A DNA stretch of 64,000 nt, from assembly GCF_022761115.1 (NCBI RefSeq), contig NZ_JAKWJS010000002.1, forward strand, positions 124,001 through 188,000. Direction: 5' to 3'. Below, in pieces: positions 35,875-52,194 of the stretch (its first letter is position 1; the number at the start of each line of letters is the position of its first letter). Under the pieces are notes generated by a model that did no database searches, had not been told where the DNA came from, and was given only the letters and a program-made list of their open reading frames with translations. The translations under genes and the position numbers were made by a program. This stretch comes from Dyella sp. RRB7. GTDB taxonomy: Bacteria > Pseudomonadota > Gammaproteobacteria > Xanthomonadales > Rhodanobacteraceae.

Positions 35875-36798
35875 CTATTTCGGCGTTCGTGTGCTAGCTG
35901 ATTTCGTCTTTCGCTGGCCACGCTTCGCACCGGCCTTGGGTGCAGGCGGTGAATTCTTCTGCTTGGCTGGAATTGCTGCGTAAGCTTCCGAGAGCGCTTT
36001 CTCCAGGGCGTTGACTTGGCCTGTTTGGCGCGCAACTTCCTGTTCGAGATGGCGCACCTCATCTCTAGTCGAGTCGTATCGGGTTTGTATCGCGGTGACA
36101 ACATCTCGATGCACTCGTTCGGCTGCCTCATGCCGCTGCTGCCATTGCTTGGCATCTTGTCGAGCCCGATCGACCTCTTGGTGAGCGCGATCTTCCACGG
36201 CGCGAATATGTACTTCCTGACGCTCACGCTCGGTTCGCAGAGCGACTTGGCTGTCGTCCAGCTGAGCCCGAAGCGCCTGGATCAGCTTCGCTTGTTGGTC
36301 GCACTGGGCTTGCAAGCGATCCCGTTGTTGCACCAGGTCCGCACGCAGCGCATGACTGTCCTGTAGTTGGCCATCCAGGGTGCGACAGGCGTGTTCGGCG
36401 AGGTCCCGGGCTGTCTGGGCTTGGGCTACGGTGATTTCCGCCGTCTGTAGCTTTGCTTCCCAAGTTTCACGCTCCTGTGCCAATTGATTCCGAGCTGCCG
36501 CCAGGACGCCGCGTTCGTTGGCAAAGCGACTGTCCAGCGAGCGCTCGGCATGGTCGGAGGCGAGGCGCCACAACTCGATCATCGCCTGCCCCACCGAACT
36601 CGGCACCTCTGGCAGGGTACTGAGTTGTCGCAAGCGCTCCCCAAGTTGGCCACGCCAAGCGTCGAGCATGCGCGTGATGGTGTTGGGCGAACCCGTACCA
36701 AGCTCGGCGCGCACTTTCTCCACGGTGGGATTTTCACCGGCCGCCAGAATGGCGTCCGCCGCCGCATTGACCTGCTCTTGAGTGATGCCGCGTGCCAT
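35875..36798 (-). CDS. TnpT/KfrA-like coiled-coil DNA-binding protein (relic transposon copy)
   Basis: 307 residues: an N-terminal KfrA-type DNA-binding domain (MARGITQEQVNAAADAILAAGENPTVEKVRAELGTGSPNTITRML in family register) followed by a long alpha-helical coiled coil with many Gln and Arg and a basic C-terminal tail rich in Lys. A GGAG ribosome site precedes the ATG. It is divergent from a truncated tyrosine recombinase, the tnpT-tnpS layout of Tn4651-type Tn3 elements, where the pair resolves cointegrates. It could instead be a plasmid KfrA; the pairing favours tnpT. The gene itself looks intact. Confidence 0.7.
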   Translation of the reverse strand: MARGITQEQVNAAADAILAAGENPTVEKVRAELGTGSPNTITRMLDAWRGQLGERLRQLSTLPEVPSSVGQAMIELWRLASDHAERSLDSRFANERGVLAAARNQLAQERETWEAKLQTAEITVAQAQTARDLAEHACRTLDGQLQDSHALRADLVQQRDRLQAQCDQQAKLIQALRAQLDDSQVALRTERERQEVHIRAVEDRAHQEVDRARQDAKQWQQRHEAAERVHRDVVTAIQTRYDSTRDEVRHLEQEVARQTGQVNALEKALSEAYAAIPAKQKNSPPAPKAGAKRGQRKTKSASTRTPK

Positions 36799-36902: not shown

Positions 36903-37487
36903 ATGAAAGGTATTTCCACGATTCCGGTGCTTGCCGAACCCGCTTCCAGCCTGGTGCTGCCGGAACAATTGGCCCAGCAAGCGGCCAATGCGGTGCGCGA
37001 ACTATTAGCCGAAGCGGCGGCCGCGAACACCACGCGCAGCTACGCCAGCGCCCTGCGCTACTGGGCGGGCTGGCATGCGGCGCGCTACGGCATCGACATG
37101 ACGTTGCCGGTGCCCGAAGTCACCGTGCTGCAGTTTGTGGTCGACCACGTGGTGCGTCGTTCGGCCGATGGCGAACTCGCGTGGGAATTGCCGCAGGCTG
37201 TCGATCAGGCGCTGGTGGCCGCGGGTCTCAAGGCCAAGCTGGGCCCGTGGATACTGGCGACGGTCCGCCATCGGGTGGCGGTGCTGTCGACCGCGCATCG
37301 GCTCAAACACGTGACCAATCCGTGCGAACAGCCGGCGATCCGCACGGTGCTGAGCCGGGCTGCCCGGGCGGCGGTCAAGCGCGGGGAGCGGCCGCGCAAG
37401 AAGACCGCGATCACCCTCGCCGAGCTCGAAGCCATGCTGGCGACTTGCGATGACAGCCTAGAAGGGGTTGAGCCGAGATACGTGTAA
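36903..37487 (+). pseudogene. Tyrosine recombinase (TnpS-like) truncated by transposon insertion
   Basis: Only the N-terminal core-binding domain and the first part of the catalytic domain remain (NTTRSYASALRYWAGWHAARYG, ITLAELEAMLATCDDSLEG). The native frame is broken at 37463, where the inverted repeat of the 14.7-kb transposon begins; the last eight residues (GVEPRYV and stop) are coded by the repeat. The catalytic Arg, His-x-x-Arg and Tyr are all missing, so it cannot recombine DNA. Its 3' part is not found on the right side of the transposon. Confidence 0.85.
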
Positions 37488-37512
37488 TTTTGATAAGTAG
37501 GAAGCCGATTCA
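37464..37512 (+). repeat. Left terminal inverted repeat of the Tn3-family transposon
   Basis: Starts with GGGG as usual in Tn3-family elements. It matches the reverse complement of 52137-52185 over 49 bases with four mismatches (positions 4, 38, 40 and 44), including an uninterrupted 33-base match. Confidence 0.93.
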
Positions 37513-37642
37513 CTCCTACTTTCAATGCGTTACAAGGAAATCAAGGTGCCGGGGCTCTCCGACCTGCCCGGGCGCGGATGAGCGGTCCCCGCACCGCCCC
37601 CTCCCTTCTCGGCGGCGGAGATCGTGCCGTCACCCGGCGATA

Positions 37643-39073
37643 TCAGCCAGGCAATACCGTTTTTAGGCTCACGATCGTGACCGTCTTCGCGCCACGCGTC
37701 AGCGCGACGTACAAGTCCTTTGGAGACATCGCATCCGCTTCCAGGACGATCGCGTGTGGGTATTCAAGCCCCTTCACGAGCAAAGTAGTTCCGATGAGCT
37801 TGTTATGTCGAATTGGTCGCCCAGAGTGCCGAAAATCGCGTTGATACCGATGAGCGCTTTCGGACAGGCTCAGCCCTTCGTTAACTTGATGCACGCGAAG
37901 GACGCTCAGAAGCCGATACAGAAGGTCGCGCCTGTAGATCGACGTCTGAGGGTTGCCTTGAATGGCATTAATCAAACGCACCAAATTCGTCGTTGAGTCG
38001 CATGCCAGGTATTGGTTCGCAGCATGCAAGACATCTGGATATTTAGTCGCCCGAGTGGCTTTCGCCAACTCGCCCCGCTTTGTCGCCGCGCTCAGAATTT
38101 CACCGACACCGTTACAACACTTCTTACAGAACTCGATCACAAGGCAGAGTCTTTGGCCTGCCTCTTTTGCCGCTTCGAGCTTCTTGATGAAATTGAAGAG
38201 GTCCTTGCCTTCGACCTCTTCAATACTGGAAAACTTACCACCAAGGGACTGCGCGAGCTTGTGGGTCTTGTTCTTGGACTTTTGATCGCCGGCGTGAATG
38301 GCGATTACTGCTTCGTCATGATCCAAAAAGGGATAGAAGAAGTTCAGGCGTTTCATGTTCGTGAAGTCTGTCAAATCGACAGAAACCCGCTTGATGCCTT
38401 TGGGTAATGGAGCGGCGAGGGAAATTTGTTGGCCCGCACGAAGACGTTTGCCGACATCATCAAGCCAGTCCCCCAGCTCCGTGGCTCCCGCTATATGCCA
38501 GCGCCATGGTTTCGTGAGCTCACCCAGCAGCTTGTAGTGCGGGTATATCTGCTGTTCCCAATTTATTGGTTGGTCATCAAAGTCGAAGATGGCTTGCATA
38601 GGGTCGCCCAATAGACGACAAGGAAGTAGATTCGCCAACGCACTGATCAGCAGATGCTGCTGTGTGGAGCAGTCTTGGTACTCGTCGACATAGATGCCGG
38701 CATAGGAACATCGGACGAGTCGTTCGACAAACGGCCTTTCAAGCAAGCCGGCACACGCTTCGTAGAGCCTTGCCCAATCTTTGGCTTCTGGGTACTCCTT
38801 CGTCCACTTCGACGTCTTCGGGAAATACAGGCACAACCTAAGCGCCCAGCTCGCTATCGTGTCTATTTGGTAGTTCGAACTAGGAACTGCCAGGGACTGC
38901 ATTTTTTTCTTGATCGCGTGGACGCCGGCATAGGTATGTGTCAGGACCAATTGCCGTTTCGATGCGGCCTTGACAGCCGATGCGATCAGGTGCGTCTTAC
39001 CATAGCCCGCGGGCGCGATGACATAGCCTTTGCCGTCGAACTGGGCGAGCGTGCGAGCCAGGTCCTCATCCAT
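37643..39073 (-). CDS. gajB: UvrD/Rep-like superfamily 1 helicase, GajB-like
   Basis: 476 residues with the SF1 set: motif I APAGYGKTH (residues 20-28), motif II VDEYQDCS (129-136), motif III LLGDPMQAIF (about 154-163), motif V LVKGLEYPHAIVLEAD and motif VI KDLYVALTRGAKTV near the C-terminus. It is shorter than UvrD (about 720), as expected for GajB (about 490). The start overlaps the 3' end of the OLD-nuclease gene by eight bases. In Gabija the helicase-like GajB binds GajA and activates on DNA ends produced during phage infection. Assignment rests on the pair, not on the helicase alone. Confidence 0.82.
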   Translation of the reverse strand: MDEDLARTLAQFDGKGYVIAPAGYGKTHLIASAVKAASKRQLVLTHTYAGVHAIKKKMQSLAVPSSNYQIDTIASWALRLCLYFPKTSKWTKEYPEAKDWARLYEACAGLLERPFVERLVRCSYAGIYVDEYQDCSTQQHLLISALANLLPCRLLGDPMQAIFDFDDQPINWEQQIYPHYKLLGELTKPWRWHIAGATELGDWLDDVGKRLRAGQQISLAAPLPKGIKRVSVDLTDFTNMKRLNFFYPFLDHDEAVIAIHAGDQKSKNKTHKLAQSLGGKFSSIEEVEGKDLFNFIKKLEAAKEAGQRLCLVIEFCKKCCNGVGEILSAATKRGELAKATRATKYPDVLHAANQYLACDSTTNLVRLINAIQGNPQTSIYRRDLLYRLLSVLRVHQVNEGLSLSESAHRYQRDFRHSGRPIRHNKLIGTTLLVKGLEYPHAIVLEADAMSPKDLYVALTRGAKTVTIVSLKTVLPG

Positions 39074-40775
39074 GGTCCACCCATGTGCGGAGCCGACTCA
39101 GTTTGCTGGCCAGCTCACGCTGTTTGAAATCCGGATCTGCGAAGGCGGGAGCAATCACTTCAAACCACGCCTGCGCATCGGAAATGGATTTGAACCACGG
39201 GGATGACTTGGACTTTGCTGCATCACCGATCGCTTTTCGAAGCTCTGGAGACTCAGGCCATTGCATGACGTCGGCATCCAGGGCTATGTCCAATTTTGAG
39301 CGGACGTTGTCGTGGACTGGATGCCCAAGATCCTGCCCTAACTTGACAGATGCAAGAACGCTACTCCACGGCAAATCGAGCATGGCCCGCTGTTCAAGAG
39401 CAAGCTGATCGGACCAAATAAGCACTTCGATCGCTTGTTTTGTTAGATCTTCGGCATCGTTAGGCGAGAACTGTTGCGGGGCATCCCCATCGGCCACCGC
39501 AAAGACGTCATAGTGAAGGGCTTTAAATCCCGCAGCGAGGGGTTTGATCTTGCTCGCACCGCGTGCATCCAGCAGAACGGCACCCGCATAGGACAACGGA
39601 TTGAGGCCTTCCGCCACCCAGAAATTATCCAGGCCACGTAGAAAACCAACCTCGGTCGCGCCCTCGCAGACGATGACTTTCATCGATAGAAACGCTTCCG
39701 CGCTGGACCGGATGTGACCTTGAACATTGAGTCCGTCCAAGTCTTTTCCAGTGGTTGCGACCACCTCTACGCCGCCTTCCAATTTGTGCACGACATGAAG
39801 TTCATCAACCGTCAGCTCACGCAAGACGGAGGGCGAGTGAGTCGTCAGGAAATACTGCCCCGTTGGATCCTCTTTGATATGTCGCATCAGGCGCGCGATC
39901 CGATGAGGCTCCAAGCCAAGCTCTACCTCATCGAACAGCGTGATGTGCTGCTCGTCGAGACCTTCCTTCTGGATGCCACACAAAAGCATTCTTCGCGACC
40001 CCAGCCCGAGCTGTCGCAACGGTATTTCCCCGTCGTGCAACGTCAGCCCGCCCAGCCTGATGCTTATGGATGCGAGGTCAAGATGAGCTTTGAACGAATC
40101 GTCGACCGGAACGCCAAGCTTCTTTGCCACCGCTTCTGACTTCGCCGCGGCCGTGTCGAAACTCTTTAAAGCGGTTGCGCGCTGCCCATCGAGTGAGCTT
40201 CGCGCTGCTCGCGTCGCGTCCACAAGCGATTCGCTCAGATTTTCAGCTTCCGTGATCCTCGCGAGCGCGGTTCCGGACGCCCAAGTCAGCTGCTTTTCGC
40301 TATAGGAGCCAATCAGGCCAACGTTTACTCGTGCACGATCAGCTGACCGAAAGTCGACACCATCGGCATTTCGAGCGGTGATAACCCGCCATTTTGGTTC
40401 CAGCTCTTTTCCCACGGTGAGGCGGACGCTCAGTACGATCTCATCACCGTCTTCGGGCTCGTCATGAAGGTTGAATGCGGCCTTGTCCCATCCACGCAGA
40501 TGCGCACCGTATTTTTGCTCGGCGCAGAACTCGTCGGGCAGATCACCGATCACGATCTCAATTTTTATCGGGACGTCGGTCTTGCAAAGATGAAAATCAG
40601 AGTCATTAAATGCGAGATTCCACTGTGGATTGAAAGCGCAGCGGATTGCCTCAAGGATCGTCGTTTTGGCGGAATCGCCCTTGCCAATTAGGCAAAATAC
40701 CCGCTGATCGGGAAGATTCCATTCCAGATCTTTGATGCCCCTAAAGTTCTGAATACTGATTCTTCTTATCTTCAC
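39066..40775 (-). CDS. gajA: OLD-family ATP-dependent endonuclease (ABC ATPase + TOPRIM), GajA-like
   Basis: 569 residues. N-terminal ABC-type ATPase: IQNFRGIKD, Walker A GKGDSAKTT (residues 31-39), signature-like LGLGSRRML near residue 255, Walker B ITLFDEVELGLEP near 280 and the switch histidine YFLTTHSPSVLREL near 305. C-terminal TOPRIM nuclease: VIVCEGATEVGFL near residue 365 and VADGD near 425, the acidic metal-binding residues. Length and order match GajA (about 580 residues). The start is GTG with AAGG seven bases upstream. Followed by the overlapping helicase gene, the class-2 OLD plus UvrD pairing that defines Gabija phage defence. Confidence 0.85.
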   Translation of the reverse strand: MKIRRISIQNFRGIKDLEWNLPDQRVFCLIGKGDSAKTTILEAIRCAFNPQWNLAFNDSDFHLCKTDVPIKIEIVIGDLPDEFCAEQKYGAHLRGWDKAAFNLHDEPEDGDEIVLSVRLTVGKELEPKWRVITARNADGVDFRSADRARVNVGLIGSYSEKQLTWASGTALARITEAENLSESLVDATRAARSSLDGQRATALKSFDTAAAKSEAVAKKLGVPVDDSFKAHLDLASISIRLGGLTLHDGEIPLRQLGLGSRRMLLCGIQKEGLDEQHITLFDEVELGLEPHRIARLMRHIKEDPTGQYFLTTHSPSVLRELTVDELHVVHKLEGGVEVVATTGKDLDGLNVQGHIRSSAEAFLSMKVIVCEGATEVGFLRGLDNFWVAEGLNPLSYAGAVLLDARGASKIKPLAAGFKALHYDVFAVADGDAPQQFSPNDAEDLTKQAIEVLIWSDQLALEQRAMLDLPWSSVLASVKLGQDLGHPVHDNVRSKLDIALDADVMQWPESPELRKAIGDAAKSKSSPWFKSISDAQAWFEVIAPAFADPDFKQRELASKLSRLRTWVDHG

Positions 40776-40788
40776 GATTCGACCTTAT

Positions 40789-41313
40789 CTATCGCAAGTC
40801 TGCTCGAGCACGGATATCGCTCGCCGAGGCGATCGGGAGAGCAATAAAATCTAGCTCTGCCATCTCGTCATAGGTGTTGAGGAACGGCAGGTACAACTCA
40901 ACCACCCAGGCATCTCCTTCCTTCCGACCCGCGTAGGGGTGGAGGATTTCGCCATCCGGCCGACACCGATCGAAACGCAGCACGCCTTCATGCGGATAGC
41001 GGCCTCCCTTGTCCTGGTGACGCGCCTTCAGCATATGCGCGACGACCTCACTGGGATAGCCTGGATGACCTGAGGTTTTATGCTCGCGCACCGCGGCGGT
41101 GATCGCATCCGTCTCGGTCAAGTGGCAGCGCTTGATCTCATGCTCATCGAATACCTTTTCCTTGGCGATGTACGGCGGCCCTTGATACCAAAGCGGGTCC
41201 TTGCAATCGAGCGGGATAGCCAGAATGGTTCGCGTGCCGACGTCCGTGCAGCGCCACCGAAAACCTGCGCTCCCCACGAATTCCAGGCCAATATGAAAAT
41301 CTGCGTGCTTCAC
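40789..41313 (-). CDS. Conserved-looking protein of unknown function preceding gajA
   Basis: The 174-residue frame begins at a GTG with a strong GGAGG ribosome site five bases before it; the open frame continues upstream to 41430 but that extension has no such site. I do not recognise the family. The sequence is soluble, with HADFHIGLEFVGSAGFRWRCTDVGTRTILAI at the start and a DAWVVELYLPFLNTYDEMAELDF segment near the end; no membrane helix or known motif. It ends 13 bases before gajA, so it is probably the first gene of the same operon and could be an accessory or regulator of the defence pair, or unrelated cargo. Confidence 0.6.
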   Translation of the reverse strand: MKHADFHIGLEFVGSAGFRWRCTDVGTRTILAIPLDCKDPLWYQGPPYIAKEKVFDEHEIKRCHLTETDAITAAVREHKTSGHPGYPSEVVAHMLKARHQDKGGRYPHEGVLRFDRCRPDGEILHPYAGRKEGDAWVVELYLPFLNTYDEMAELDFIALPIASASDIRARADLR

Positions 41314-41446
41314 GGCCCCTCCGGTGATAGCTGCGTTTCCTCCGTTGAAGCATAGCCAGCCTCGGTCTCGACATGTGAGTCGCTTCGCTGCCCCTGCTGC
41401 GGGCCACGCGGAATCACCACCCCCGACCATATGACTGGGGCGCCCC

Positions 41447-42424
41447 TCACTCAGATCGCTTACGTTTACGTCCTGCGGCCATTTGGGTTTCCGCTGTCAC
41501 TGCCCGCGCTTCCGCCGATTGAAGCGCGGCAGTCAGTCCGGCCGTCTGGCCTCGTGCGGTGGCCAACTCGAGGGCCAATTGATCGCGCTCGACAGTCATG
41601 CTGGCGAGCGTCGCCAGGCGTGTCTCGTTGTCAGCCAACTCGCGGCGATGACGGGCAATTTCCAGGCGCATCTCGGTAAGGCTTGACTGCTGCTCTTCGC
41701 TTCGCTGCCGCAGCTTGGCCAGCTGTTGCTCGGCTTGCCGGAGCCCTTCGCGTGCTGCGTCCGTTTCCTGCAGCATGCGGGCCTGAGCGGCCTCCACGCG
41801 GTCGTTCGCCTTGTCCCGCTCCACTTGAAAAGCGGCATCACGGGCCGCGACGGTGGCCTGGAATTCAGTCGTCAATCGGTCGTGGTTTTGCCGCGCGGCT
41901 TCCAGTTGCTGAGCCATGTCGGCACGGACAGTCGTCACTTCCTGTTGCAGGGCCTGGACTTGTCCGAGCGCATCGTGCTTGGCTTCGGTTTCGCTAGCGA
42001 GCTGCTGTTGAAGTTCGGCGCGTTGCTCGTGCAGTCCGCTCACCTCGTGCCTTAGCTGATCGGCCGCGGTCAACGCCGCGTCCCGCTCGCTGATGAGCTC
42101 ATCATGGGCTTGCTGCAATGCCGCCAGGTCCGACTCCAGTGCTTGGCGGTGCTCGCTAAAGACCTTCTCGCCTTGTTCGACGGCGGCCACCCATAGCGAA
42201 CGCATCGCGTCAGCGATCGCCGGCGGCAGATCGGCGCCGAGCGCATCGGCCTTCGCCCTTTCATCCTTCCACAGTTTCAGTTCGTCGTTGATTGTGGTGC
42301 GGCTGCCTTGCTGGATGGCGGCATAGATCAGGTCGACGGTGAGTTCGTGCGGGTGTTTGCCGCTGGCCACCAGGTTGGCGGCGGCTTCGCGGGTGCGTTG
42401 ACGGGTATCGCTGACGCGGCTCAT
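41447..42424 (-). CDS. tnpT: TnpT cointegrate-resolution protein (KfrA-like coiled coil)
   Basis: 325 residues: a KfrA-type N-terminal DNA-binding domain (about 1-90; QRTREAAANLVASGKHPHELTVDLIYAAIQQGSRTTIND region) then a nearly continuous coiled coil rich in Gln, Ala and Arg, and a basic tail GRKRKRSE. GGAG lies six bases before the ATG. Divergent from the tyrosine recombinase with a 171-base intergenic region; in Tn4651 TnpT stimulates TnpS recombination at the site between them. It shares only the general layout with the relic copy at 35875. Confidence 0.8.
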   Translation of the reverse strand: MSRVSDTRQRTREAAANLVASGKHPHELTVDLIYAAIQQGSRTTINDELKLWKDERAKADALGADLPPAIADAMRSLWVAAVEQGEKVFSEHRQALESDLAALQQAHDELISERDAALTAADQLRHEVSGLHEQRAELQQQLASETEAKHDALGQVQALQQEVTTVRADMAQQLEAARQNHDRLTTEFQATVAARDAAFQVERDKANDRVEAAQARMLQETDAAREGLRQAEQQLAKLRQRSEEQQSSLTEMRLEIARHRRELADNETRLATLASMTVERDQLALELATARGQTAGLTAALQSAEARAVTAETQMAAGRKRKRSE

Positions 42425-42487
42425 AACGGCTCCAGTCGCTCACAAGGCAGATTTCGATGGTCAAGGTAGCCGTATATCACAGTATTA

Positions 42488-42503
42488 CGTTATACGTATA
42501 ACG
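42488..42503. promoter_or_regulatory. Perfect 16-bp palindrome in the tnpT-tnpS intergenic region, probable recombination (rst) or operator site
   Basis: CGTTATACGTATAACG is self-complementary throughout. It lies in the 42425-42595 gap, where the resolution site of Tn4651-type elements is placed and where divergent promoters must also lie. The exact recombination core cannot be read by eye. Confidence 0.55.
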
Positions 42504-42595
42504 ATATGACCAGGAAATTTACGATAATCGCTATAATCAGAAGTCTTTGCCCTGTACGCTGTGCGAGGTGACCGCCTGGCAGTGAGGAAAGCTCG

Positions 42596-43741
42596 ATGGC
42601 CGACATGACCGTGACAATCGCTGCCGGCGTGACGTTGCCGCCGACGTTATCGGGCGCCCATGGAGCCAATCGCGCCCCATCCGGCGTGCCTCGCCAGATC
42701 GCCGCAGACACCGACGTCGCTGCCATAGGCGTGTGGTTGGCCGAATACATGGACTCGCCCCACACGTTCCGCAGCTACCGCAAGGAAGCCGAACGGCTGC
42801 TGGCTTGGGCGACTCAGGTGCGTGGCAAGGCGATCTCTAGCCTGACCCGTGAAGACGTGCTGGCTTATGAGGCTTTCCTGGCCAATCCGCCCGCTGATTG
42901 GTGCGATGACGCATTGGCCCGTCGCGGCGACCACCGTCGCCTGTTTGCCGGGCCGCTATCTAATCGAAGCCGGCGCCAAGCCCTCGGCATCCTGGCTGGC
43001 CTGTTCAATTACTTGGTACGTGCGGGCTACCTGGCGGGATCGCCATTCGCACTGCAACCGCGTCGCCGCCGTGGGCGTAAGGCATCCCCCCAGGTCGAGC
43101 GCTTTCTGGATCGCCCCCTCTGGGCCGATGCCTTGGCTCAGCTGGACCGCTGGCCCTGTCTGACGTCGCGCGAGCATCAGCGCTATGAACGCTCACGCTG
43201 GGTACTTCGCTTGTTGTACGAAACTGCGCTGCGCGTGTCGGAAGCCGCGCAGGCGCAGGAAGCGGATCTGCAGCTGGTCCGCGGCCGGTGGTGGCTTCGC
43301 GTCATTGGCAAAGGCGGTGTCGAAGGCCGGGTTCCGTTGAGCGACACCTTGATGCGAGAGTTCGCGCGCTACCGCTCCTTTCTTGAGCTATCGCCCACGC
43401 CAGAGGTCGGCAGTCGGCGCCCACTCATTCTGGGTATTGCAGGGCGCGAGGACGCACTCACGCCGACGGCGGTCTACCTCATCGTCAAAGACACCTTCGC
43501 CCGGATCGCTGACGACTGGGAAGCTAAAGACCCGGCACGCGCCGCACGGCTCCGACGCGTGTCGACCCACTGGCTTCGCCACACCGCTGCCTCGCACCAG
43601 GCGGATGACGGCAATCCCATTCACCACATCCAACAAAACCTACGCCACAGCTCCATTGCTACCACGTCGATCTATCTGCATGCGGAAGACGATGCCAGGC
43701 ATGCAACGACAACGGAGCGGCAACAACGATCGGAGGCATGA
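42596..43741 (+). CDS. tnpS: TnpS tyrosine recombinase (cointegrate resolution)
   Basis: 381-residue site-specific recombinase. The SAM-like core-binding domain spans about 40-180 (SPHTFRSYRKEAERLLAWA); the catalytic domain has the first Arg in ETALRVSEA, Lys in GKGGVEGRVPL, HWLRHTAAS (His-x-x-Arg), the later His in NLRHSS and the nucleophile Tyr in TTSIYLHAE. The set is complete. GAGGAAAG sits seven bases before the ATG. The stop overlaps the next gene's start (ATGA at 43738-43741), so the RES gene is translationally coupled to it. Confidence 0.9.
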   Translation: MADMTVTIAAGVTLPPTLSGAHGANRAPSGVPRQIAADTDVAAIGVWLAEYMDSPHTFRSYRKEAERLLAWATQVRGKAISSLTREDVLAYEAFLANPPADWCDDALARRGDHRRLFAGPLSNRSRRQALGILAGLFNYLVRAGYLAGSPFALQPRRRRGRKASPQVERFLDRPLWADALAQLDRWPCLTSREHQRYERSRWVLRLLYETALRVSEAAQAQEADLQLVRGRWWLRVIGKGGVEGRVPLSDTLMREFARYRSFLELSPTPEVGSRRPLILGIAGREDALTPTAVYLIVKDTFARIADDWEAKDPARAARLRRVSTHWLRHTAASHQADDGNPIHHIQQNLRHSSIATTSIYLHAEDDARHATTTERQQRSEA

Positions 43742-44901
43742 TGGGACTGGTCAAGAGCGAATGGATGGAAGCCCAGGAGCGAGGTTGGTCGGCACCGGAA
43801 ACATTCGTGTGCGCCGACTGTGTCGACGACCAGCATCTCAAAGATCTGATCAAGCGCGCTGCCTGTGCTGACACCTGCGATTACTGTGGCCGAAGCGACG
43901 TGGTGGACATTGCGGCCGAATCCCATGTCGTGATGGAGGCTGTCTACGACACGATCCATACTTACTACTGTGAACCAGCAGCAGGCGGCGTGCCCTATGA
44001 CGGCGGCTTTGTCGTGCCGCCGATCGATGTGCAAGAGGTCCTGGACAATCTGGGCTTCGATGGGCATGCAGATTTTGTCGAGGCGGTCGTCGATGCCGAA
44101 GTCAATGGGGACGCCTTCGTCCCCGCTGCTAACGGGCATTGGGCAGGTAGCCATCCGCACGAAGTGCTTTCATCAGCATGGAGCTTGTTCACGCATACGG
44201 TGAAGCACGAGACGCGCTTCCATTTTGCGGACGCACCACGATCCGAATCCACGTCGCCTTACGAAATCGACGTGGCCGACGTCTTGCCCGCCATCGCGCA
44301 GCGCCTTCGCCCGTTGATTCGCACCCTCCCGGCGGGGACTGACGTCTATCGCTCACGGTTGCGTTCCCGTGGTCAGGCCTGGTTGCCCGGTGCAAAGGAG
44401 TTGGGACCGCCTCCGAAAGAGAAAACGTCGGCGGGCCGGATGAACCCGGCGGGCATTCCTTACCTCTATACCGCTTTCGACAAACCAACGGCTCGTCGCG
44501 AAATCGGAATCACCGGTCGGACGAGCCACACCGTATTCACGGCCACCTTCACGTTGTCGAAGCCGCTAGAAGTCATCGACCTGACCCAGTTGCCGCCTAT
44601 GCCGTCGCTCTTTGACGTGGCCAACAAAGAGGCGCGCGAGCAGGCCTTATTCATTCGGGCGTTTGTCGACGCCCTCAGCAAGCCGGTGATGAAGGACGGT
44701 CATGAGCACATCGACTATGTGCCCTCCCAAGTCGTTTGCGAATACTTGGCCCAGGTCTTCGAACCGGCACCGGGCACCAAGCTCGGCGGCCTGATCTATC
44801 CGAGTGCCGTGCACCCTGGCGGGAAGAATCTTGTGGTTTTTCCCGAGGATCGTTATTGGGGCACCTTTCACGGGGTCACCTTTGCCCGCGCCGGGAAATG
44901 A
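43738..44901 (+). CDS. RES-domain protein with zinc-finger-like/HEPN-associated N-terminal region
   Basis: 387 residues. The N-terminal part has two Cys pairs (C25-x2-C28 and C47-x2-C50: FVCADC, TCDYCGR), as in HEPN/RES N-terminal domains. The C-terminal 190 residues are a RES domain: YRSRLRS, RMNPAGIPYLYTAFDKPTARREI and LIYPSAVHPGGKNLVVFPED contain the conserved Arg, Tyr, Glu and Ser. RES proteins in toxin-antitoxin systems consume NAD+. No Xre/MbcA-type antitoxin gene is adjacent. It overlaps tnpS by ATGA, so it is made together with the recombinase. It could be a defence or stability toxin; activity is inferred. Confidence 0.8.
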   Translation: MMGLVKSEWMEAQERGWSAPETFVCADCVDDQHLKDLIKRAACADTCDYCGRSDVVDIAAESHVVMEAVYDTIHTYYCEPAAGGVPYDGGFVVPPIDVQEVLDNLGFDGHADFVEAVVDAEVNGDAFVPAANGHWAGSHPHEVLSSAWSLFTHTVKHETRFHFADAPRSESTSPYEIDVADVLPAIAQRLRPLIRTLPAGTDVYRSRLRSRGQAWLPGAKELGPPPKEKTSAGRMNPAGIPYLYTAFDKPTARREIGITGRTSHTVFTATFTLSKPLEVIDLTQLPPMPSLFDVANKEAREQALFIRAFVDALSKPVMKDGHEHIDYVPSQVVCEYLAQVFEPAPGTKLGGLIYPSAVHPGGKNLVVFPEDRYWGTFHGVTFARAGK

Positions 44902-44945
44902 AACCGCGCCGTCCTGAGCGCCAATCAGCAATGGCGACCGAACGG

Positions 44946-44964
44946 GCAAATCATCATGATTTGC
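44946..44964. repeat. Perfect inverted repeat after the RES gene
   Basis: Nine-base arms GCAAATCAT/ATGATTTGC around a single C, 44 bases past the RES stop and between convergent genes. No T run follows, so it is more like a protein-binding site than an intrinsic terminator. Confidence 0.5.
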
Positions 44965-45022
44965 TAGACCGGCAGATGTTTGGCTTCCGCCTTCGTGCGT
45001 CGAGGTCCAGCCGTGTTGCGCC

Positions 45023-45388
45023 CTAGGCTGTGCGCTTCCGAGGACGCGCGGTATTTGCTACGGACTTGGGCGCGGAAGCCGGTGTGCAGGACTGACCGGT
45101 CGCGCAGCAGCAATTCTCAGTTAGGTAGCCCACCAATTCATTCATGACCTCAAGGATGGGCGAGTAATAGATGAATCGGCTTTCTTGTCGGCTGGTGATC
45201 AGCCCAGCATGAACGAGTTCCTTCAGGTGGAAGGAGAGAGTGGCATTGGCTAGCCCGAGCCGTTCGGCGATCACGCTAGCCGCTAAGCCATCGGGAGCGT
45301 GCTCCACAAGCAGGCGATATACGGCCAATCGCGACTCTTGGGCGAGAGCGGATAGGACGGTGATGGCTTGTTTGGTCTGCATTGGCAT
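45023..45388 (-). CDS. arsR: ArsR-family arsenic-responsive repressor
   Basis: 121-residue winged-helix repressor (QESRLAVYRLLVEHAPDGLAASVIAERLGLANATLSFHLKEL). A C-terminal cysteine cluster, NCCCATGQSC, gives a Cys pair and a third Cys six residues further, the spacing of the As(III) site in the Acidithiobacillus ferrooxidans-type ArsR; the classic CxC of helix 3 in plasmid R773 ArsR is absent. The chosen start MPMQ has no clear ribosome site. It is last in the minus-strand arsenic operon, 64 bases after arsC, and a short inverted repeat ACACTGAGTGT in that gap may be a local control site. Confidence 0.9.
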   Translation of the reverse strand: MPMQTKQAITVLSALAQESRLAVYRLLVEHAPDGLAASVIAERLGLANATLSFHLKELVHAGLITSRQESRFIYYSPILEVMNELVGYLTENCCCATGQSCTPASAPKSVANTARPRKRTA

Positions 45389-45452
45389 AGGAGGAATCGG
45401 AGACTTCGTAGAAAACACACTCAGTGTAGGAGAAATGCCGTGGTCGTGACGG

Positions 45453-45965
45453 TTACGACTGACCAGGTGCTGCTGAGCTCTGCCCGATGGAAGCAAGCCG
45501 GCTAGTGAGTGCCAGGCGGTCCAGTGCTTCGATACGCAAGTTCATCAATAAGCTAATGCGTTGCTGGAGCAGACTTCGTGCCAGCAGAAAAGCCTTGTAG
45601 ATGACTTCGTCGTCGCCCGCCGCTTTGGCTGGATCAGGAATGCTCCAGTGCGCCGTGATGGGCGCGCCCGGCCACGCGGGACAGACTTCGCCCGCGACCT
45701 GATCGCACACGGTGATCACGAAATCCATCACTGGCGCACCAGGACGGGTAAATTCTTCCCAGCTTTTGCTTCGCAGTGTCGCCGTCGGTAGATCCACCGC
45801 TCGCAATACCTCCAAGGTTTGCGGGTAGATGAACCCCTTGGGCTGACTGCCCGCACTGAAGCCGTGAAACTGGCCCTTACCAAAGTGATTGGTGATTGCC
45901 TCGGCCAGGATGCTACGTGCCGAGTTTCCGGTGCAAACGAACAAGACGTTGTAATGCCCCTGCAT
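45453..45965 (-). CDS. arsC: Arsenate reductase, LMW-phosphatase (thioredoxin-linked) type
   Basis: 170 residues. The phosphatase loop [12 protein letters not shown] (Cys-x5-Arg) binds arsenate, and later cysteines in VITVCDQVAGEVCPAWPG form the disulfide relay. Reduces arsenate to arsenite for export by Acr3. It begins 12 bases after the acr3 stop. Confidence 0.92.
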   Translation of the reverse strand: MQGHYNVLFVCTGNSARSILAEAITNHFGKGQFHGFSAGSQPKGFIYPQTLEVLRAVDLPTATLRSKSWEEFTRPGAPVMDFVITVCDQVAGEVCPAWPGAPITAHWSIPDPAKAAGDDEVIYKAFLLARSLLQQRISLLMNLRIEALDRLALTSRLASIGQSSAAPGQS

Positions 45966-45977
45966 GGCAGTCTCCGC

Positions 45978-47060
45978 TTAGGCTGTGCGTGCTTCGTACC
46001 AGTGCTTACTCACCGTGACGATGCGAACCACTGACAGCATCACCGGCACCTCGATCAGGACGCCTACCACGGTGGCCAGGGCGGCCCCCGAGTGCACGCC
46101 GAACAGTCCCACGGCCGTGGCCACCGCCAACTCGAAGAAGTTGCTCGCTCCGATCAGTGCCGACGGCGCCGCAACACAATGCGGCACACCGAGCTTCCGA
46201 TTGAGGAGGTAGGCCAGGCCGGAGTTGAAGTAGACCTGGATCAAGATGGGTACCGCGAGCATCGCGATGATCAGGGGCTGCGCAAGGATCTGCTGTCCCT
46301 GGAAGCCGAACAGCAGCACCAAGGTCAGCAGCAAGGCACTCAGCGAGATCGGTCCCAGTCGCGTCAGCAGGCGTTGGAGTGCATCGTGACCACCATGGGC
46401 CAGCACGACACGGCGCAGGACGACGCTGATGAGCACCGGGACGACGATATAAAGCACGACTGAGAGAATCAGCGTGTTCCACGGGACGGTGATGGCCGAG
46501 ATGCCCAGCAACAACCCGACGATCGGCGCAAAGGCAACCACCATGATCGCGTCGTTCACGGCGACCTGACTCAGGGTGAAATTGGGCTCGCCGCCGCACA
46601 GGTTGCTCCAGACGAAGACCATGGCCGTGCACGGGGCCGCGGCAAGCAGGATCAGGCCGGCCACATAGGAATCGAGCTGATCGGCCGGCAAGCAGGCCGC
46701 GAACACATGGCGGATGAAGATCCACCCCAGCAACGCCATCGAGAAGGGTTTGACCGCCCAGTTGATGAAGAGCGTGACACCGATGCCTTTCCACTGATGG
46801 CGCACACCCGCCATCGCCCCGAAGTCGATCTTCAGCAGCATGGGAATGATCATCAACCAGATCAGCACCGCCACCGGTAGATTGACCTGTGCGACCTGCA
46901 TATTTCCCAAGGCTTCGAACGATCCGGGCAGCAGATGGCCGAGCAAGGTGCCGGCCACGATGCAGAGCAGCACCCACACGGTGAGATAGCGTTCGAAGAA
47001 TCCGATGCGGGCTACCTTGGATGGTGGCGTCGCGTCGATGGTGGTCGTGGCCTGGTTCAT
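45978..47060 (-). CDS. acr3: Arsenite efflux transporter Acr3
   Basis: 360-residue inner-membrane exporter with ten predicted hydrophobic helices (YLTVWVLLCIVAGTLLGHLL first). The Acr3 signature AAAPCTAMVFVWSNL includes the essential cysteine, and NDAIMVVAFAPIVGLLLG is also typical. I set the start at MNQATT, where the ATG overlaps the stop of the upstream arsC (ATGA at 47057-47060); the open frame further upstream is the shadow of that arsC gene. Confidence 0.95.
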   Translation of the reverse strand: MNQATTTIDATPPSKVARIGFFERYLTVWVLLCIVAGTLLGHLLPGSFEALGNMQVAQVNLPVAVLIWLMIIPMLLKIDFGAMAGVRHQWKGIGVTLFINWAVKPFSMALLGWIFIRHVFAACLPADQLDSYVAGLILLAAAPCTAMVFVWSNLCGGEPNFTLSQVAVNDAIMVVAFAPIVGLLLGISAITVPWNTLILSVVLYIVVPVLISVVLRRVVLAHGGHDALQRLLTRLGPISLSALLLTLVLLFGFQGQQILAQPLIIAMLAVPILIQVYFNSGLAYLLNRKLGVPHCVAAPSALIGASNFFELAVATAVGLFGVHSGAALATVVGVLIEVPVMLSVVRIVTVSKHWYEARTA

Positions 47061-47575
47061 GCGGCATCCTCGTTGTCGTCTTCGCCGGTCATCGCGCCGA
47101 TACCATCGAGCGCCCACTTGAGGTCGTCCTGACTCATCGTCTCGACAGGCAGGTTTAACAACGCCATGAGTCGGTAAGTGATCAGCATGTGCGCCTTGCG
47201 GAAGGCTTCGTTGATGGCAACGGGACTGCCCTTGACCGCCGCCGGATCCGGCAGGCCCCAGTGGGTGCGTACGAAGTCGCCAAAAAGCACCGGACACGGT
47301 TCATTGGCGGCGCTGTCGCAAACCGTCACCACGATGTCCAGCGGCGGCGCGCCTTCGCCGACAAAGCGGTCCCACGACTTGCTGCTCAGCCCATCGATGG
47401 GAATACCTGCCGTCGCGAGCTCTTCCAGGGCATAGGGGTTAACTTGGCCGGTCGGTTTGCTGCCGGCGCTGTAGGCCTCGAATCGGCCTTGACCCAGGTG
47501 GTTGAGGGTGGCTTCGGACAGGATGCTACGGGCCGAATTGCCCGTACAGATGAAGAGAACGCGACAAGGATGCAT
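47057..47575 (-). CDS. arsC2: Second arsenate reductase, LMW-phosphatase type
   Basis: 172 residues, first gene of the minus-strand arsenic operon. The loop [12 protein letters not shown] and the later cysteines in [18 protein letters not shown] match the thioredoxin-linked ArsC family. It is clearly related to but diverged from the copy at 45453; the acidic C-terminus ([10 protein letters not shown]) is an extension. Overlaps acr3 by ATGA. Confidence 0.92.
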
Positions 47576-47611
47576 GGCGCCGTGGATCCAGGGGTGGCTG
47601 CGATGGTTGTA

Positions 47612-47637
47612 ATTCTATATTTCCATAATGATAGAAT
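47612..47637. promoter_or_regulatory. Probable ArsR operator in the divergent arsC2/arsH promoter region
   Basis: ATTCTAT and ATAGAAT arms, perfect inverted copies of seven bases, lie 12 bases apart in the 96-base gap between the divergent arsC2 and arsH genes, an AT-rich island in GC-rich DNA. Position and form suit ArsR; binding is inferred. Confidence 0.6.
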
Positions 47638-47671
47638 CGTTACATCAACGCAACTGGTCCGGACCCTTGCC

Positions 47672-48499
47672 ATGACGCTGCATGACTTACCCCACATCAC
47701 CGCTGATGTGCTCGACAAACCCAGCCTGGACAAGCTGGCCCTGCCAGCGGGTTCCAGTCATCCGCCGAGGATCTTGATCCTGTACGGTTCGTTGCGCCCG
47801 CAGTCGTTCAGCCGAAAGTTGGCTCTGGAGGCCGAGCGGATTCTTCAGCAGTTTGGCGCCGAAACCCGGGTGTTCGATCCTCATGAGTTACCGATGCTCG
47901 ACAGCGTGCCCGCGAGCCACCCCAAGGTGCAGGAGCTGCGCGCACTGTCCCTGTGGTCGGAAGGCCAGGTCTGGGTGAGCCCGGAACGTCATGGCTCGGT
48001 GACCGGGGTATTCAAGAATCAGATCGACTGGCTACCGCTGGAAGATGGCAGCGTGCGTCCCACCCAGGGACGGACCTTGGCCGTGATGCAAGTCAGTGGT
48101 GGCTCGCAGTCCTTCAACGTGGTCAATGCGCTGCGCGTGCTCGGTCGCTGGATGCGCATGGTAACCATCCCGAACCAGTCGTCGGTGGCAAAGGCCTGGC
48201 AGGAGTTCGATGACCAAGGTCGCATGAAGCCGTCGGCGTTTTACGATCGCGTCGTGGACGTGATGGAAGAGCTGTTCAAGTTCACGCTGATGGTGCGCGA
48301 TCGCAGCGACTATCTCGTGGACCGCTACAGTGAACGCAAGGGTGCGGCCGAGGCCCTCGCGCTTTCCGCCGCCGCGGGAGTCACGGAGGTGATCGCTGCT
48401 TCCGCGCCCGCACCGTTGCCGGCGACGGATTCCGCAACAGCGCGCAAGCCTTCCACGCGTCCGGCCTGCTGCAGCAGTACCACGGAGGCCTGTTCATGA
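47672..48499 (+). CDS. arsH: ArsH organoarsenical/NADPH-flavin oxidoreductase
   Basis: 275 residues. Flavodoxin-like FMN protein with the phosphate-binding [15 protein letters not shown] and the ArsH-specific stretches [28 protein letters not shown] and [23 protein letters not shown]. Oxidises trivalent organoarsenicals. Start chosen at ATG 47672; the longer open frame upstream crosses the arsC2 gene. A C-terminal extension of about 40 residues ends with a cysteine-containing tail ([12 protein letters not shown]) that ArsH proteins normally lack. Confidence 0.93.
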
Positions 48500-48930
48500 C
48501 GCCCACGCCTATGCCGGTCACCATCTACCACAACCCTGACTGTGGTACCTCGCGCAACACACTGGCATTGATCCGCCATGCAGGCATCGAGCCCACCGTT
48601 ATTGAGTACCTGCAGCACCCGCCCACGCGCGAACGGTTGATCCAGCTGATCGACGAAGCCATGTTGCGACCGCGCGAGGCGGTGCGTGAAAAGGGGACCC
48701 CGTTCGCGGCGCTTGGCCTGGGCGAGCCTGGCGTCACCGATGAGATGATTATCGACGCCATGCTTGCGCATCCCATCCTCATCAATCGGCCCTTCGTGGT
48801 GACGCCGATGGGGACGCGGCTATGCCGCCCGTCCGAGGTGGTGCTGGACATCTTGCCGCCGGTCACGCGTCCCTTCACCAAAGAGGATGGCGAAGTGGTG
48901 ATCGATGCCCAGGGGCAGCGCGTCCGATAG
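48496..48930 (+). CDS. arsC3: Arsenate reductase, glutaredoxin-linked type
   Basis: 144 residues of the ArsC/Spx fold: [19 protein letters not shown] with the catalytic Cys, then the [11 protein letters not shown] and [16 protein letters not shown] stretches with the Arg residues that bind arsenate. Mechanistically distinct from the two LMW-phosphatase-type enzymes in this operon. The start overlaps arsH (ATGA at 48496-48499). Confidence 0.93.
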
Positions 48931-49122
48931 CGAGGCGCCGGCGGATGGTCGTTCTGTCACCACCATGCGCCGCTTCCTGTTTTAAGATCCGACGCTTTAA
49001 GGCGGTGGGGCTCGACGCGATCGTCGGCCCCGTGGGCGGCGGTGCACGGTCGCAAGAACATTGGCCACGCGCGCTTGCCGTTCTGCCGCACTACAACCTA
49101 GCAGTCAACATCGAGGAATGGC

Positions 49123-52083
49123 ATGGCTTCGATTGACCGGACGGCGTACCCGCAATTCAAACGCAATCCTGTAGTTCGCGAGCTCGTCGCGTTCTATACG
49201 CTCTCTGATACCGAGCTCGCGTTCGTCACGCAACATGCCCGACAAGCGCCCAGCCGCCTAACGCTGGCCATCTTGCTCAAAAGCTTTCAACGCCTGAAAT
49301 ATTTTCCTGCGTTGGATGATGTACCCCTCGCCGTGATTCGCCACATCCGGGCATCCTTGAAATTCAGGATGCAGATCAAGCCGGCGACTCCCAGCACCGT
49401 CACGCTCTACCGCTATCACCAGCTCGTTCGTAAAAATCTGCAGTTTCAGGCGTTCGAGCATGGCGGGTTAGATGTCGCCGCCCGCGCCATCCAAGACGCC
49501 GCAGCGGTCATGGACAATCCGCCCGACCTGATCAACGTCGGCATCGAACAACTGGTCAAGGATCGTTTCGAGCTTCCCGCGTTCAGCACACTCGACCGCC
49601 TTAGCCGTCGCATTCGCACCCTGGTCAACGGTCGCTTCTTTGCCGAGATGGAACGGCGCCTGACCACGGAAGAGAAAGAGCGCCTGGATGCGCTTGTTCA
49701 GTCGAAAGGATCGGCGGCCAAAAGCCCGCTCCACGAGGTGAAGCGGCTACCCAAGCGATCCTCCCTCAAGCACTTCCAAGAGTTGCTCGACCACATGGCG
49801 AAGCTCGACGAGCTCGTTGCCACGGAGCAGCCGCTGGCCGGCATTCCTGAACTCAAACGCAAGCATTTCGCCGCAGAAGCACGAGTCTTGGATGCGGCGG
49901 AGCTAAAGGACTTTCGACCCGCCAAACGCCGCGCGTTGCTGCTGTGCCTAATCCATCGTGCTCGCGTCCAAGCGCGCGATGATCTCGCCGACATGTTCAT
50001 CAAGCGGATCGGCAAGATCCACAACCACGGCAAGGAAGAACTGGAGCGTCTGCGTAGCCGCTACCGTGAAAAGGCAGAGACGTTAGTGGCCACCATGTCC
50101 GATGTCATCCGTGTACTGAGCGAACATCACAGCGACACCACAGCCGGGCGCGAGATACGGCGCCTGGTGACGGCGCGCGGGAGCATCGAGACCTTTCAGC
50201 AGGACTGCAACGCGATCGCAGCCCACAGCGGCGACAACTATCTGCCGCTGCTGTGGCCGTACTACAAGTCTCATCGCGCCACCATTCTTCGCATGGTGCG
50301 GCTGCTGGATATGAAGTCGACCACAGAGGATCAATCGCTGATTGATGCGATGGAGCTCGTGCTTGCCCAAGAGCGCAGTCGCAGCGAATGGCTGGATGAG
50401 CCCGTGGACCTTTCGTTCACCACACACCTTTGGCGGAAAACACTGATTCACCGCATGGAGTCGGGGGAGGAACGGATCCATCGACGCCATTTTGAGGTCT
50501 GCGTGTTTTCATCGCTGGCCAACGAGCTGAAGTCAGGCGACGTGGCCGTTCGCGGCTCGGAAGCCTATGCAGATCAGGGCGAGCAACTGCTGACTTGGGA
50601 AGAATGCGAGCCACAAGTGGAGGACTACTGCCGCACACTAGATCTGCCGTCGAACCCGGTTGCGTTCGTCAATGCACTGCAATCGCGCCTGATGGCGATG
50701 GCTGAGCAGACCGATCAGGAATATGTCGACAACGGCCAGGTCGTGATCGACGATCAAGGTATGCCCGTCCTGAAGCGCAACAAGGCCAAGGAAATGACGG
50801 GCAGCGCACGCGCCCTTGAAACAGCCATCCATGAGCGCCTGAAAGAACGCAGTGTCATTGATGTGTTGTGCGACGTCGGGCACTGGACCAACTGGCACCG
50901 TCACTTCGGCCCCTTGTCGGGCTCCGATCCTAAGATCGACCAGCCGGCCGAACGCTATGTACTGACGGCCTTTACCTACGGATGCAACCTGGGCCCGAAC
51001 CAGGCCGCCCGGCATTTCCGGGGTGCGGTGTCGGCGCACATGCTCTCGTTCGTCAATCGCCGGCACATTGATGCCAACAAGTTGTCAGCTGCCTGCCGGG
51101 ACATCATCAATAGCTACGCAAACCTGCAGCTCCCCAAGCATTGGGGCGATGGCAAGCGTGCGGCGGCGGATGGTACCAAGTACGAGATGTACGACCAGAA
51201 CACGCTGGCGTCGTATCACATTCGCTACGGCGGCTATGGCGGCATTGCCTACCACCACGTCTCTGACACCTATGTGGCGCTCTTCAGTCACTTCATCCCG
51301 TGTGGCGTCTGGGAGGCGGTCTATATCATCGACGGACTACTGAAGAACACGTCCGATATCCAGCCAGACATCGTGCATGCCGACACGCAGGGCCAGTCAT
51401 TGCCCGTGTTTGGCTTGTCCCACTTGCTGGGCATCCAGCTCATGCCGCGTATTCGCAACTGGCAGGACTATCGGTTCTTCCGACCAGAAGCCGATGTGAC
51501 CTATGAGCATATCGACGCGTTGTTCCGCGATAGCGTCGACTGGGACCTCATCGAAACCCATTGGAAGGATCTCATGCGGGTCGTTCTGTCGATCAAGGCA
51601 GGCAAGATCGCCGCATCAACTTTGCTGCGACGGCTGGGCAACAACAGTCGCAAGAACCGGCTGTATCACGCTTTTCGCGCGCTGGGGTCCGCAGTGCGGA
51701 CATTGTTCTTGCTCCAGTACATCTCCGATCAGGACCTGCGCGAGCAGATCACCGCGTCGACCAACAAGGTCGAGGCCTACAATGGCTTCTCGAAGCACTT
51801 CTTCTTCGGCGGGGAGGGGGTTATTGCCGACAATGATCCCGTCGAGCAAGAAAAGGCCGTCAAATATAACGACCTGGTCGCCAACGCGGTGATCTTCCAT
51901 AACGTCGTGGAGCAGACCCGCATCATTAAATCCTTGATGCGGGATGGCTGGAAAATCACGGCAGAGGATGTTGCAGCCTTGAGCCCCTACGTAACGGCGC
52001 ACATCAAGCGCTTCGGTGACTATCTCATCGACATGGATGCCATCCCGGACCCGTACGAGAGCGACTTAGCTTTGGCCGCCTAA
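49123..52083 (+). CDS. tnpA: Tn3-family transposase TnpA
   Basis: 986 residues, the usual size. The DDE catalytic residues are in AADGTKYEMYDQ (about residue 682), IVHADTQGQSLPVFG (about 752) and STNKVEAYNGFSKHFFFGG (about 883). The N-terminal DUF4158-like domain begins with the FKRNPVVRELVAFYTL stretch. GAGGAAT precedes the ATG. It ends 53 bases before the right inverted repeat and appears intact, so the element could still be mobile. The 192 bases between arsC3 and tnpA hold nothing recognisable. Confidence 0.95.
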   Translation: MASIDRTAYPQFKRNPVVRELVAFYTLSDTELAFVTQHARQAPSRLTLAILLKSFQRLKYFPALDDVPLAVIRHIRASLKFRMQIKPATPSTVTLYRYHQLVRKNLQFQAFEHGGLDVAARAIQDAAAVMDNPPDLINVGIEQLVKDRFELPAFSTLDRLSRRIRTLVNGRFFAEMERRLTTEEKERLDALVQSKGSAAKSPLHEVKRLPKRSSLKHFQELLDHMAKLDELVATEQPLAGIPELKRKHFAAEARVLDAAELKDFRPAKRRALLLCLIHRARVQARDDLADMFIKRIGKIHNHGKEELERLRSRYREKAETLVATMSDVIRVLSEHHSDTTAGREIRRLVTARGSIETFQQDCNAIAAHSGDNYLPLLWPYYKSHRATILRMVRLLDMKSTTEDQSLIDAMELVLAQERSRSEWLDEPVDLSFTTHLWRKTLIHRMESGEERIHRRHFEVCVFSSLANELKSGDVAVRGSEAYADQGEQLLTWEECEPQVEDYCRTLDLPSNPVAFVNALQSRLMAMAEQTDQEYVDNGQVVIDDQGMPVLKRNKAKEMTGSARALETAIHERLKERSVIDVLCDVGHWTNWHRHFGPLSGSDPKIDQPAERYVLTAFTYGCNLGPNQAARHFRGAVSAHMLSFVNRRHIDANKLSAACRDIINSYANLQLPKHWGDGKRAAADGTKYEMYDQNTLASYHIRYGGYGGIAYHHVSDTYVALFSHFIPCGVWEAVYIIDGLLKNTSDIQPDIVHADTQGQSLPVFGLSHLLGIQLMPRIRNWQDYRFFRPEADVTYEHIDALFRDSVDWDLIETHWKDLMRVVLSIKAGKIAASTLLRRLGNNSRKNRLYHAFRALGSAVRTLFLLQYISDQDLREQITASTNKVEAYNGFSKHFFFGGEGVIADNDPVEQEKAVKYNDLVANAVIFHNVVEQTRIIKSLMRDGWKITAEDVAALSPYVTAHIKRFGDYLIDMDAIPDPYESDLALAA

Positions 52084-52136
52084 CGGGAGGGGCAGTGGAC
52101 CCCACCAAAAGGCCAGCAAGTCATTGATCCATGTAA

Positions 52137-52185
52137 TGAATTGGCGTTCTACTTATCAAAATTACACGTATCTCGGCTCAATCCC
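52137..52185 (-). repeat. Right terminal inverted repeat of the Tn3-family transposon
   Basis: Reverse-complement counterpart of 37464-37512, with four mismatches in 49 bases; the outermost bases read GGGA instead of GGGG. The receptor gene starts just outside it. Confidence 0.93.
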
Positions 52186-52194
52186 TATCTCATC

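Follow-up and report, generated by a model that had tools for sequence, protein, structure and literature searches.

The genome of the soil bacterium Dyella sp. RRB7 harbors, within a stretch of 64,000 nucleotides of contig NZ_JAKWJS010000002.1 (positions 124,001 to 188,000, hereafter the window), a gene pair resembling gajA and gajB of the phage defense system Gabija. This pair, apparently of a separate Gabija clade, is very probably accessory cargo of an autonomous Tn4651-type arsenic-resistance transposon that moves between Dyella replicons. The element is 14,722 bp long, from 37464 to 52185 of the window, and its inverted repeats enclose gajB, gajA, a third open reading frame (ORF), tnpT, tnpS, a HEPN/RES gene, an arsenic-resistance (ars) cluster and tnpA (Table 1).

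Identification of the gajA and gajB genes

A preliminary description of this DNA, made from the sequence alone, had proposed an OLD nuclease with an ABC ATPase and the TOPRIM motifs VIVCEGATE and VADGD, followed by an overlapping gene for a short UvrD-like helicase. Both motifs are present in GajA, and the 476-residue gajB overlaps gajA by 8 nt (ORF analysis of the window). The proposed gajA-gajB identity is supported by profile search, with the PADLOC models matched end to end and far beyond chance: GajA matches PDLC04168 over residues 1–568 (655.6 bits, E 1.7e-197), and GajB matches PDLC04173 over residues 14–474 (533.8 bits, E 1e-160). Identification of GajA as OLD, AriA or PtuA was rejected, as these profiles reach 66.4, 70.2 and 54.9 bits against the 655.6 bits of the GajA profile. 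Pfam domains are AAA_15, AAA_21 and an OLD-like TOPRIM in GajA and UvrD-helicase in GajB. The region first proposed for the operon, 37643–41313, contains both genes as described; its end at 41313 is the GTG start of the third ORF on the same strand.

In phmmer searches of solved structures, Gabija GajA is the top match of GajA (E 7.6e-8) and Gabija GajB the sole match of GajB (E 0.0055), each over a short stretch; five of the 19 distinct GajA matches are unrelated kallikrein chains close to the cut-off. The structures of both proteins were modeled as monomers only. Among solved structures, the GajA model (predicted local distance difference test, pLDDT, 77; built from eight sequences) best matches chains of Gabija GajA and of TsOLD, with retron Eco8 next; the TM-scores are only 0.4–0.5.

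The active-site residues are well preserved. All 10 sequences of the GajA alignment (A1) have K37, H313, E371, D429 and D431 (numbered as in the window protein), and these residues align with two canonical GajA proteins, from a Lactococcus and an Enterococcus plasmid. The TOPRIM metal residues E371, D429 and D431 are among them, a point on which the preliminary description had staked its assignment. The TOPRIM site of Bacillus cereus GajA consists of E379, D432 and D434, according to a portion of PMC10781630; in the B. cereus protein E379A abolishes cutting and the ATPase-domain mutants K35A and H320A retain it, as given in excerpts of PMC8136825. GajB contains the helicase motifs GYGKT, DEYQD, GDPMQ, KGLEY and YVALTR, which are conserved when the protein is aligned with six members of the clade and three canonical GajB sequences.

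Both genes are under purifying selection. Between the two Dyella copies of the element, the second of which is described below, gajA differs by 37 synonymous and 14 non-synonymous changes (ratio of non-synonymous to synonymous rates, dN/dS, 0.11) and gajB by 13 and 4 (dN/dS 0.09). Elsewhere in the element dN/dS is 0.018 for tnpA and highest for arsR (0.52) and for the arsH frame (0.60, the frame measured overlapping an arsC gene). These values bear on the possibility that gajAB has lost its activity in this strain and persists as a decaying passenger. Such decay is seen among relatives, since GajB is damaged in three of 17 cellular loci, cut by an IS3 element in J. lividum and split between frames in Caballeronia and S. 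meliloti; the Walker A motif of the Dyella GajA also deviates from the canonical one. However, neither Dyella copy has a disrupted gajA or gajB reading frame, dN/dS is about 0.1 and the catalytic residues are kept, which makes decay very improbable compared with a maintained cargo.

The element is a mobile Tn4651-type transposon

In the Tn4651 subgroup, tnpT and tnpS are divergent and tnpA lies apart, with the rst site located between tnpS and tnpT (from the sections of PMC7157771 seen). The window element has a Tn3-family DDE transposase, divergent tnpS and tnpT and terminal inverted repeats, which extend over 65 nt at 83% identity, or 50 nt at 92% (37463–37512 and 52137–52186). The 5-bp target duplication of the subgroup is found at copies in two other genomes, Dyella sp. 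ASV21 (ATAAC) and G036 (TATGC), and is absent at the window copy. The preliminary description's "apparently complete" transposon carrying ars genes therefore holds for both ends, the gene set and the ars genes, and fails for the target duplication. Along its full length, TnpA shares 77–78% identity with Xanthomonas Tn3-family transposases (among the 30 matches listed), and tnpA of the element is the sole Tn3-type transposase gene found in this genome.

Comparisons with other genomes provide the evidence for mobility. First, the entire element is present in Dyella sp. ASV21 (genome G017, locus L001), 98% identical and with borders equivalent to 37464 and 52185, at a site unrelated to that of the window and flanked by a perfect ATAAC duplication. 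Second, the two ASV21 flanks meet without an insert in plasmid p1 of Dyella sp. BiH032 (L075, position 25210–25212), which is therefore an empty site; the ASV21 and p1 flanks match over 10.9 kb at 79.6% on one side and over 0.9 kb at 68.8% beside the other. The gajAB cargo is thus mobile, in agreement with the earlier proposal that the pair is carried by the transposon. Because its flanks match plasmid p1, the ASV21 contig is itself probably a plasmid. Third, a sibling element in G036, flanked by the TATGC duplication, has ends that match over 37–39 nt and a TnpA that is 85% identical; no gajA match is found in that genome. Were gajAB beside the transposon by chance or through chromosomal rearrangement, the missing duplication and unmatched flanks of the window copy would be accounted for; this is refuted by ASV21, where the 14.7-kb arrangement recurs with unchanged borders and a perfect duplication, together with the empty site in a related plasmid, and the probability of chance or rearrangement is negligible.

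A further genome, G005, has ends of at least three copies of the same type of transposon, located at contig ends (L033, L034, L036, L037 and L038). Their duplications are ATAGT and TAGTA, and one copy lies at the same ATAAC site as in ASV21, with an 8.2-kb flank that is 100% identical; a 5.1-kb internal contig is 100% identical to ASV21 over the first 3,000 bases, which were compared. On the G005 contigs gajA was not found, and none of them links the element ends to the interior.

The guanine-plus-cytosine (GC) contents of gajB (0.535) and gajA (0.547) are the lowest of the 13 element genes measured. The other genes range from 0.57 to 0.64, including tnpA (0.584), the ars genes (0.57–0.63) and tnpT and tnpS (0.64), in a window of 0.62. 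The low GC content of gajAB fits its capture from elsewhere.

An apparently separate, uncommon Gabija clade

Outside PDLC04168–04173, the best PADLOC scores are 108.4 bits for GajA and 43.9 bits for GajB; these scores come from PDLC00062–00148, taken from their numbers and descriptions to be the original GajA and GajB models. Because both proteins score low with these other models and the canonical Lactococcus GajA scores low with PDLC04168, the window pair appears to represent a separate branch of Gabija, modeled apart from the original profiles. The clade is uncommon in genomes: it occurs in four of 368 other genomes drawn from the class (E 1e-40), and GajA matches below E 1e-70 were found in three of 100 relatives (G017, G030 and G045), with 11 weaker ones at E 1.2e-17 or above. 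Among plasmids, 187 of the 318 records with a GajA match are from Klebsiella, and the single Klebsiella record scanned reaches 800.9 bits with PDLC04168. The window pair draws attention to this apparently untested Gabija clade.

The preliminary description depended on the nuclease falling among OLD classes that pair with helicases, and it does. Seventeen cellular loci were fetched, from 10 of the 318 plasmid records and seven genomes, with about 5–15 kb on each side of gajA; flanks of several viral contigs were shorter. A gajB match directly follows gajA on the same strand in all 17 cellular loci and adjoins it in seven of eight viral-contig loci, the eighth gajA match lying at a contig end.

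A Tn3-type transposase is present in two of the 17 cellular loci (ASV21 and Cupriavidus pHG1) and in none of the eight viral loci (two transposase queries), and ASV21 is the only one of the 17 in which gajAB lies within a transposon that has a tnpA of its own. Given the limited flanks fetched, and as most gajA loci were not screened for inverted repeats, these counts may be too low. In Cupriavidus necator pHG1 (L053, 11556–19446), a gajAB pair of the same clade lies between 38-bp Tn3-like inverted repeats that are 89% alike, with no annotated transposase inside the repeats and no duplication seen. It is a hint, not proof, of a second transposon-borne case.

The distribution also bears on an alternative in which the pair is an OLD-type nuclease and helicase for DNA repair or for transposon replication or cointegrate handling, Gabija by profile only. 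OLD proteins have also been connected with DNA repair (PMC8136825, in part), this clade stands apart from the original GajA models, and gajAB lies behind tnpT in the same direction, with no sigma-70-like promoter in 37400–42700 in a simple consensus scan. On the other hand, the tnpS/tnpT pair is present without a gajA match in G036, G041 and G052, and gajAB also lies near an Abi-family gene in Serratia and near a Shedu gene in Phyllobacterium, in fetched stretches where no Tn3 transposase was found. A dedicated role in repair or transposition is therefore unlikely, and Gabija cargo is the preferred interpretation.

Several observations weigh against this interpretation. The best phmmer stretch of GajA covers residues 1–76 only, a low similarity to experimentally studied Gabija, and the canonical Lactococcus GajA reaches only 80.6 bits with PDLC04168. 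The GajB model is weak (predicted TM-score, pTM, 0.50), with UvrD as its top match and UvrD/Rep/PcrA-type chains above GajB, which is at rank 20. The residue preceding the Walker A lysine of the Dyella GajA is Ala rather than Gly; this position is Ser in Janthinobacterium, Thr in Phyllobacterium and Cys in Sulfitobacter, and Gly in the remaining five clade members and both canonical GajA proteins. The window copy lacks a target duplication, with TAGAA on the left and TATCT on the right. Finally, no experiments on this clade were found in the literature searched.

Other genes and flanking DNA

Table 1. Features of the gajAB-bearing element, in window coordinates
Feature	Position	Strand	Basis or remark
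Left terminal inverted repeat, starts GGGGTTGAGCCGAGATACG	37464..37512	+	Repeat search; ASV21 copy ends at the same base
gajB-like, short UvrD-type superfamily 1 (SF1) helicase, 476 residues	37643..39073	-	PADLOC PDLC04173 and motifs
gajA-like OLD nuclease (ABC ATPase and TOPRIM), 569 residues, GTG start	39066..40775	-	PADLOC PDLC04168, TOPRIM residues
Third ORF, 174 residues from GTG at 41313	40789..41313	-	Longest form from 41430
tnpT-like resolvase-pair helper (KfrA_N, coiled coil)	41447..42424	-	PF11740, 65.9 bits; divergent from tnpS
tnpT-tnpS intergenic region, 171 bp, candidate rst resolution site	42425..42595		Position only
tnpS-like tyrosine recombinase, 381 residues	42596..43741	+	PF00589, 72.2 bits
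HEPN/RES-domain protein, toxin-like, cargo between tnpS and tnpA	43738..44901	+	PF18870, PF08808 above cut-offs
Arsenic-resistance cluster	45023..48930		Pfam matches
tnpA, Tn3-family transposase, 986 residues	49123..52083	+	PF01526, 492 bits
Right terminal inverted repeat	52137..52185	-	Repeat search; matching ASV21 border

The third ORF has no match in Pfam, PADLOC or NCBIfam and belongs to a family of proteins of about 175 residues without a Pfam match. Its relatives follow tnpT in G041 and G052 and lie inside the sibling element beside tnpA in G036, three genomes without any gajA match. As a Gabija component it was rejected, since relatives occur in seven further fetched loci without an adjoining gajA; two of these (G041 and G052) follow tnpS/tnpT, and in the stretches fetched for the other five no queried transposon gene was seen.

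The HEPN/RES gene overlaps tnpS by 4 nt and is separated from arsR by a 121-bp gap, which is overlapped by short ORFs with TTG or GTG starts only. By Pfam, the ars cluster encodes an ArsR-type regulator, two LMWPc-type ArsC proteins, an SBF transporter, which we take to be of the ACR3 type, an FMN_red protein, presumably ArsH-like, and an ArsC-family reductase.

To the left of the element, a recombinase gene ends at the left repeat (36903–37487), together with a KfrA-like partner (35875–36798). In G034 (L074), relatives of the two genes are found near a different Tn3-type transposase; the recombinase there is longer than the truncated one of the window, and a partial OLD/GajA-like stretch is close by. 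When the missing half of the truncated recombinase was sought elsewhere in the window's genome, only weak matches (29–34% identity) were obtained. To the right, the reading frame of a TonB-dependent receptor gene (52141–54537) begins inside the right inverted repeat, and the gene may have lost its original start or had it replaced; a search of the other 60 genomes at E 1e-150 found no match to the receptor. The window copy most likely reflects an insertion after which flanking DNA was lost or exchanged.

Proposed mode of action and comparison with known systems

Gabija is a GajA-GajB complex (PMC10781630 and PMC10822852, each in part). By analogy with solved Gabija, the Dyella GajA and GajB would form one complex, whose target would be phage or other foreign DNA unguarded by RecBCD-type enzymes. 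The GajA TOPRIM site would cut or nick this DNA with the assistance of the GajB helicase, and phage replication would be stopped. We infer complex formation, DNA cutting, phage defense and any benefit to the transposon from these likenesses. It is also conceivable, albeit rather unlikely, that gajAB behind tnpT and the HEPN/RES gene behind tnpS are both expressed from the resolution region; immunity and toxin would then be produced together on entry into a new cell or on cointegrate formation and guard the element from rivals.

The window element places a putative phage defense pair beside metal resistance in a Tn3-family transposon that is autonomous and replicative and for whose transfer among replicons of one genus there is evidence. 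Should defense be confirmed, phage immunity could hitchhike on metal selection. A known defense system occurs here in a known type of transposon, and the combination is new as far as searched. The literature searched, which leaves most subscription journals outside and includes portions of PMC8649781, PMC12375680, PMC12342005, PMC12548467 and PMC8987985, showed no published case of Gabija in a Tn3-family transposon.

The pair resembles Gabija of B. cereus VD045 in gene order, domain layout, the TOPRIM Glu and DxD and the helicase DEYQD box; it differs in its low sequence similarity, its own PADLOC models PDLC04168–04173 and the change of the Walker A Gly to Ala. As Gabija, the pair would be expected to form a 4:4 GajA-GajB complex. 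The transposon is like TnXax1 and the Tn4651 subgroup in its divergent tnpT/tnpS, separate tnpA, short inverted repeats and 5-bp duplication (ASV21 and G036 copies). The cargo of TnXax1 is xopE and mlt, according to a figure legend of PMC7157771, in contrast to gajAB, HEPN/RES and ars genes here. Like TnHdN1, a Tn3-family element with a toxin-antitoxin pair and, according to a portion of PMC7157771, the only tnpS/tnpT example in the collection of that paper, the window element has a toxin-like gene straight after tnpS and before tnpA; unlike TnHdN1, it has no recognized antitoxin partner. A parallel in cargo is provided by Tn7-like transposons with Gabija, in which an OLD nuclease, typically with a UvrD-family helicase, is also carried; excerpts of PMC8649781 count Gabija, by its nuclease, on 338 such elements. 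Unlike these carriers, the window element is a replicative transposon of the Tn3 family.

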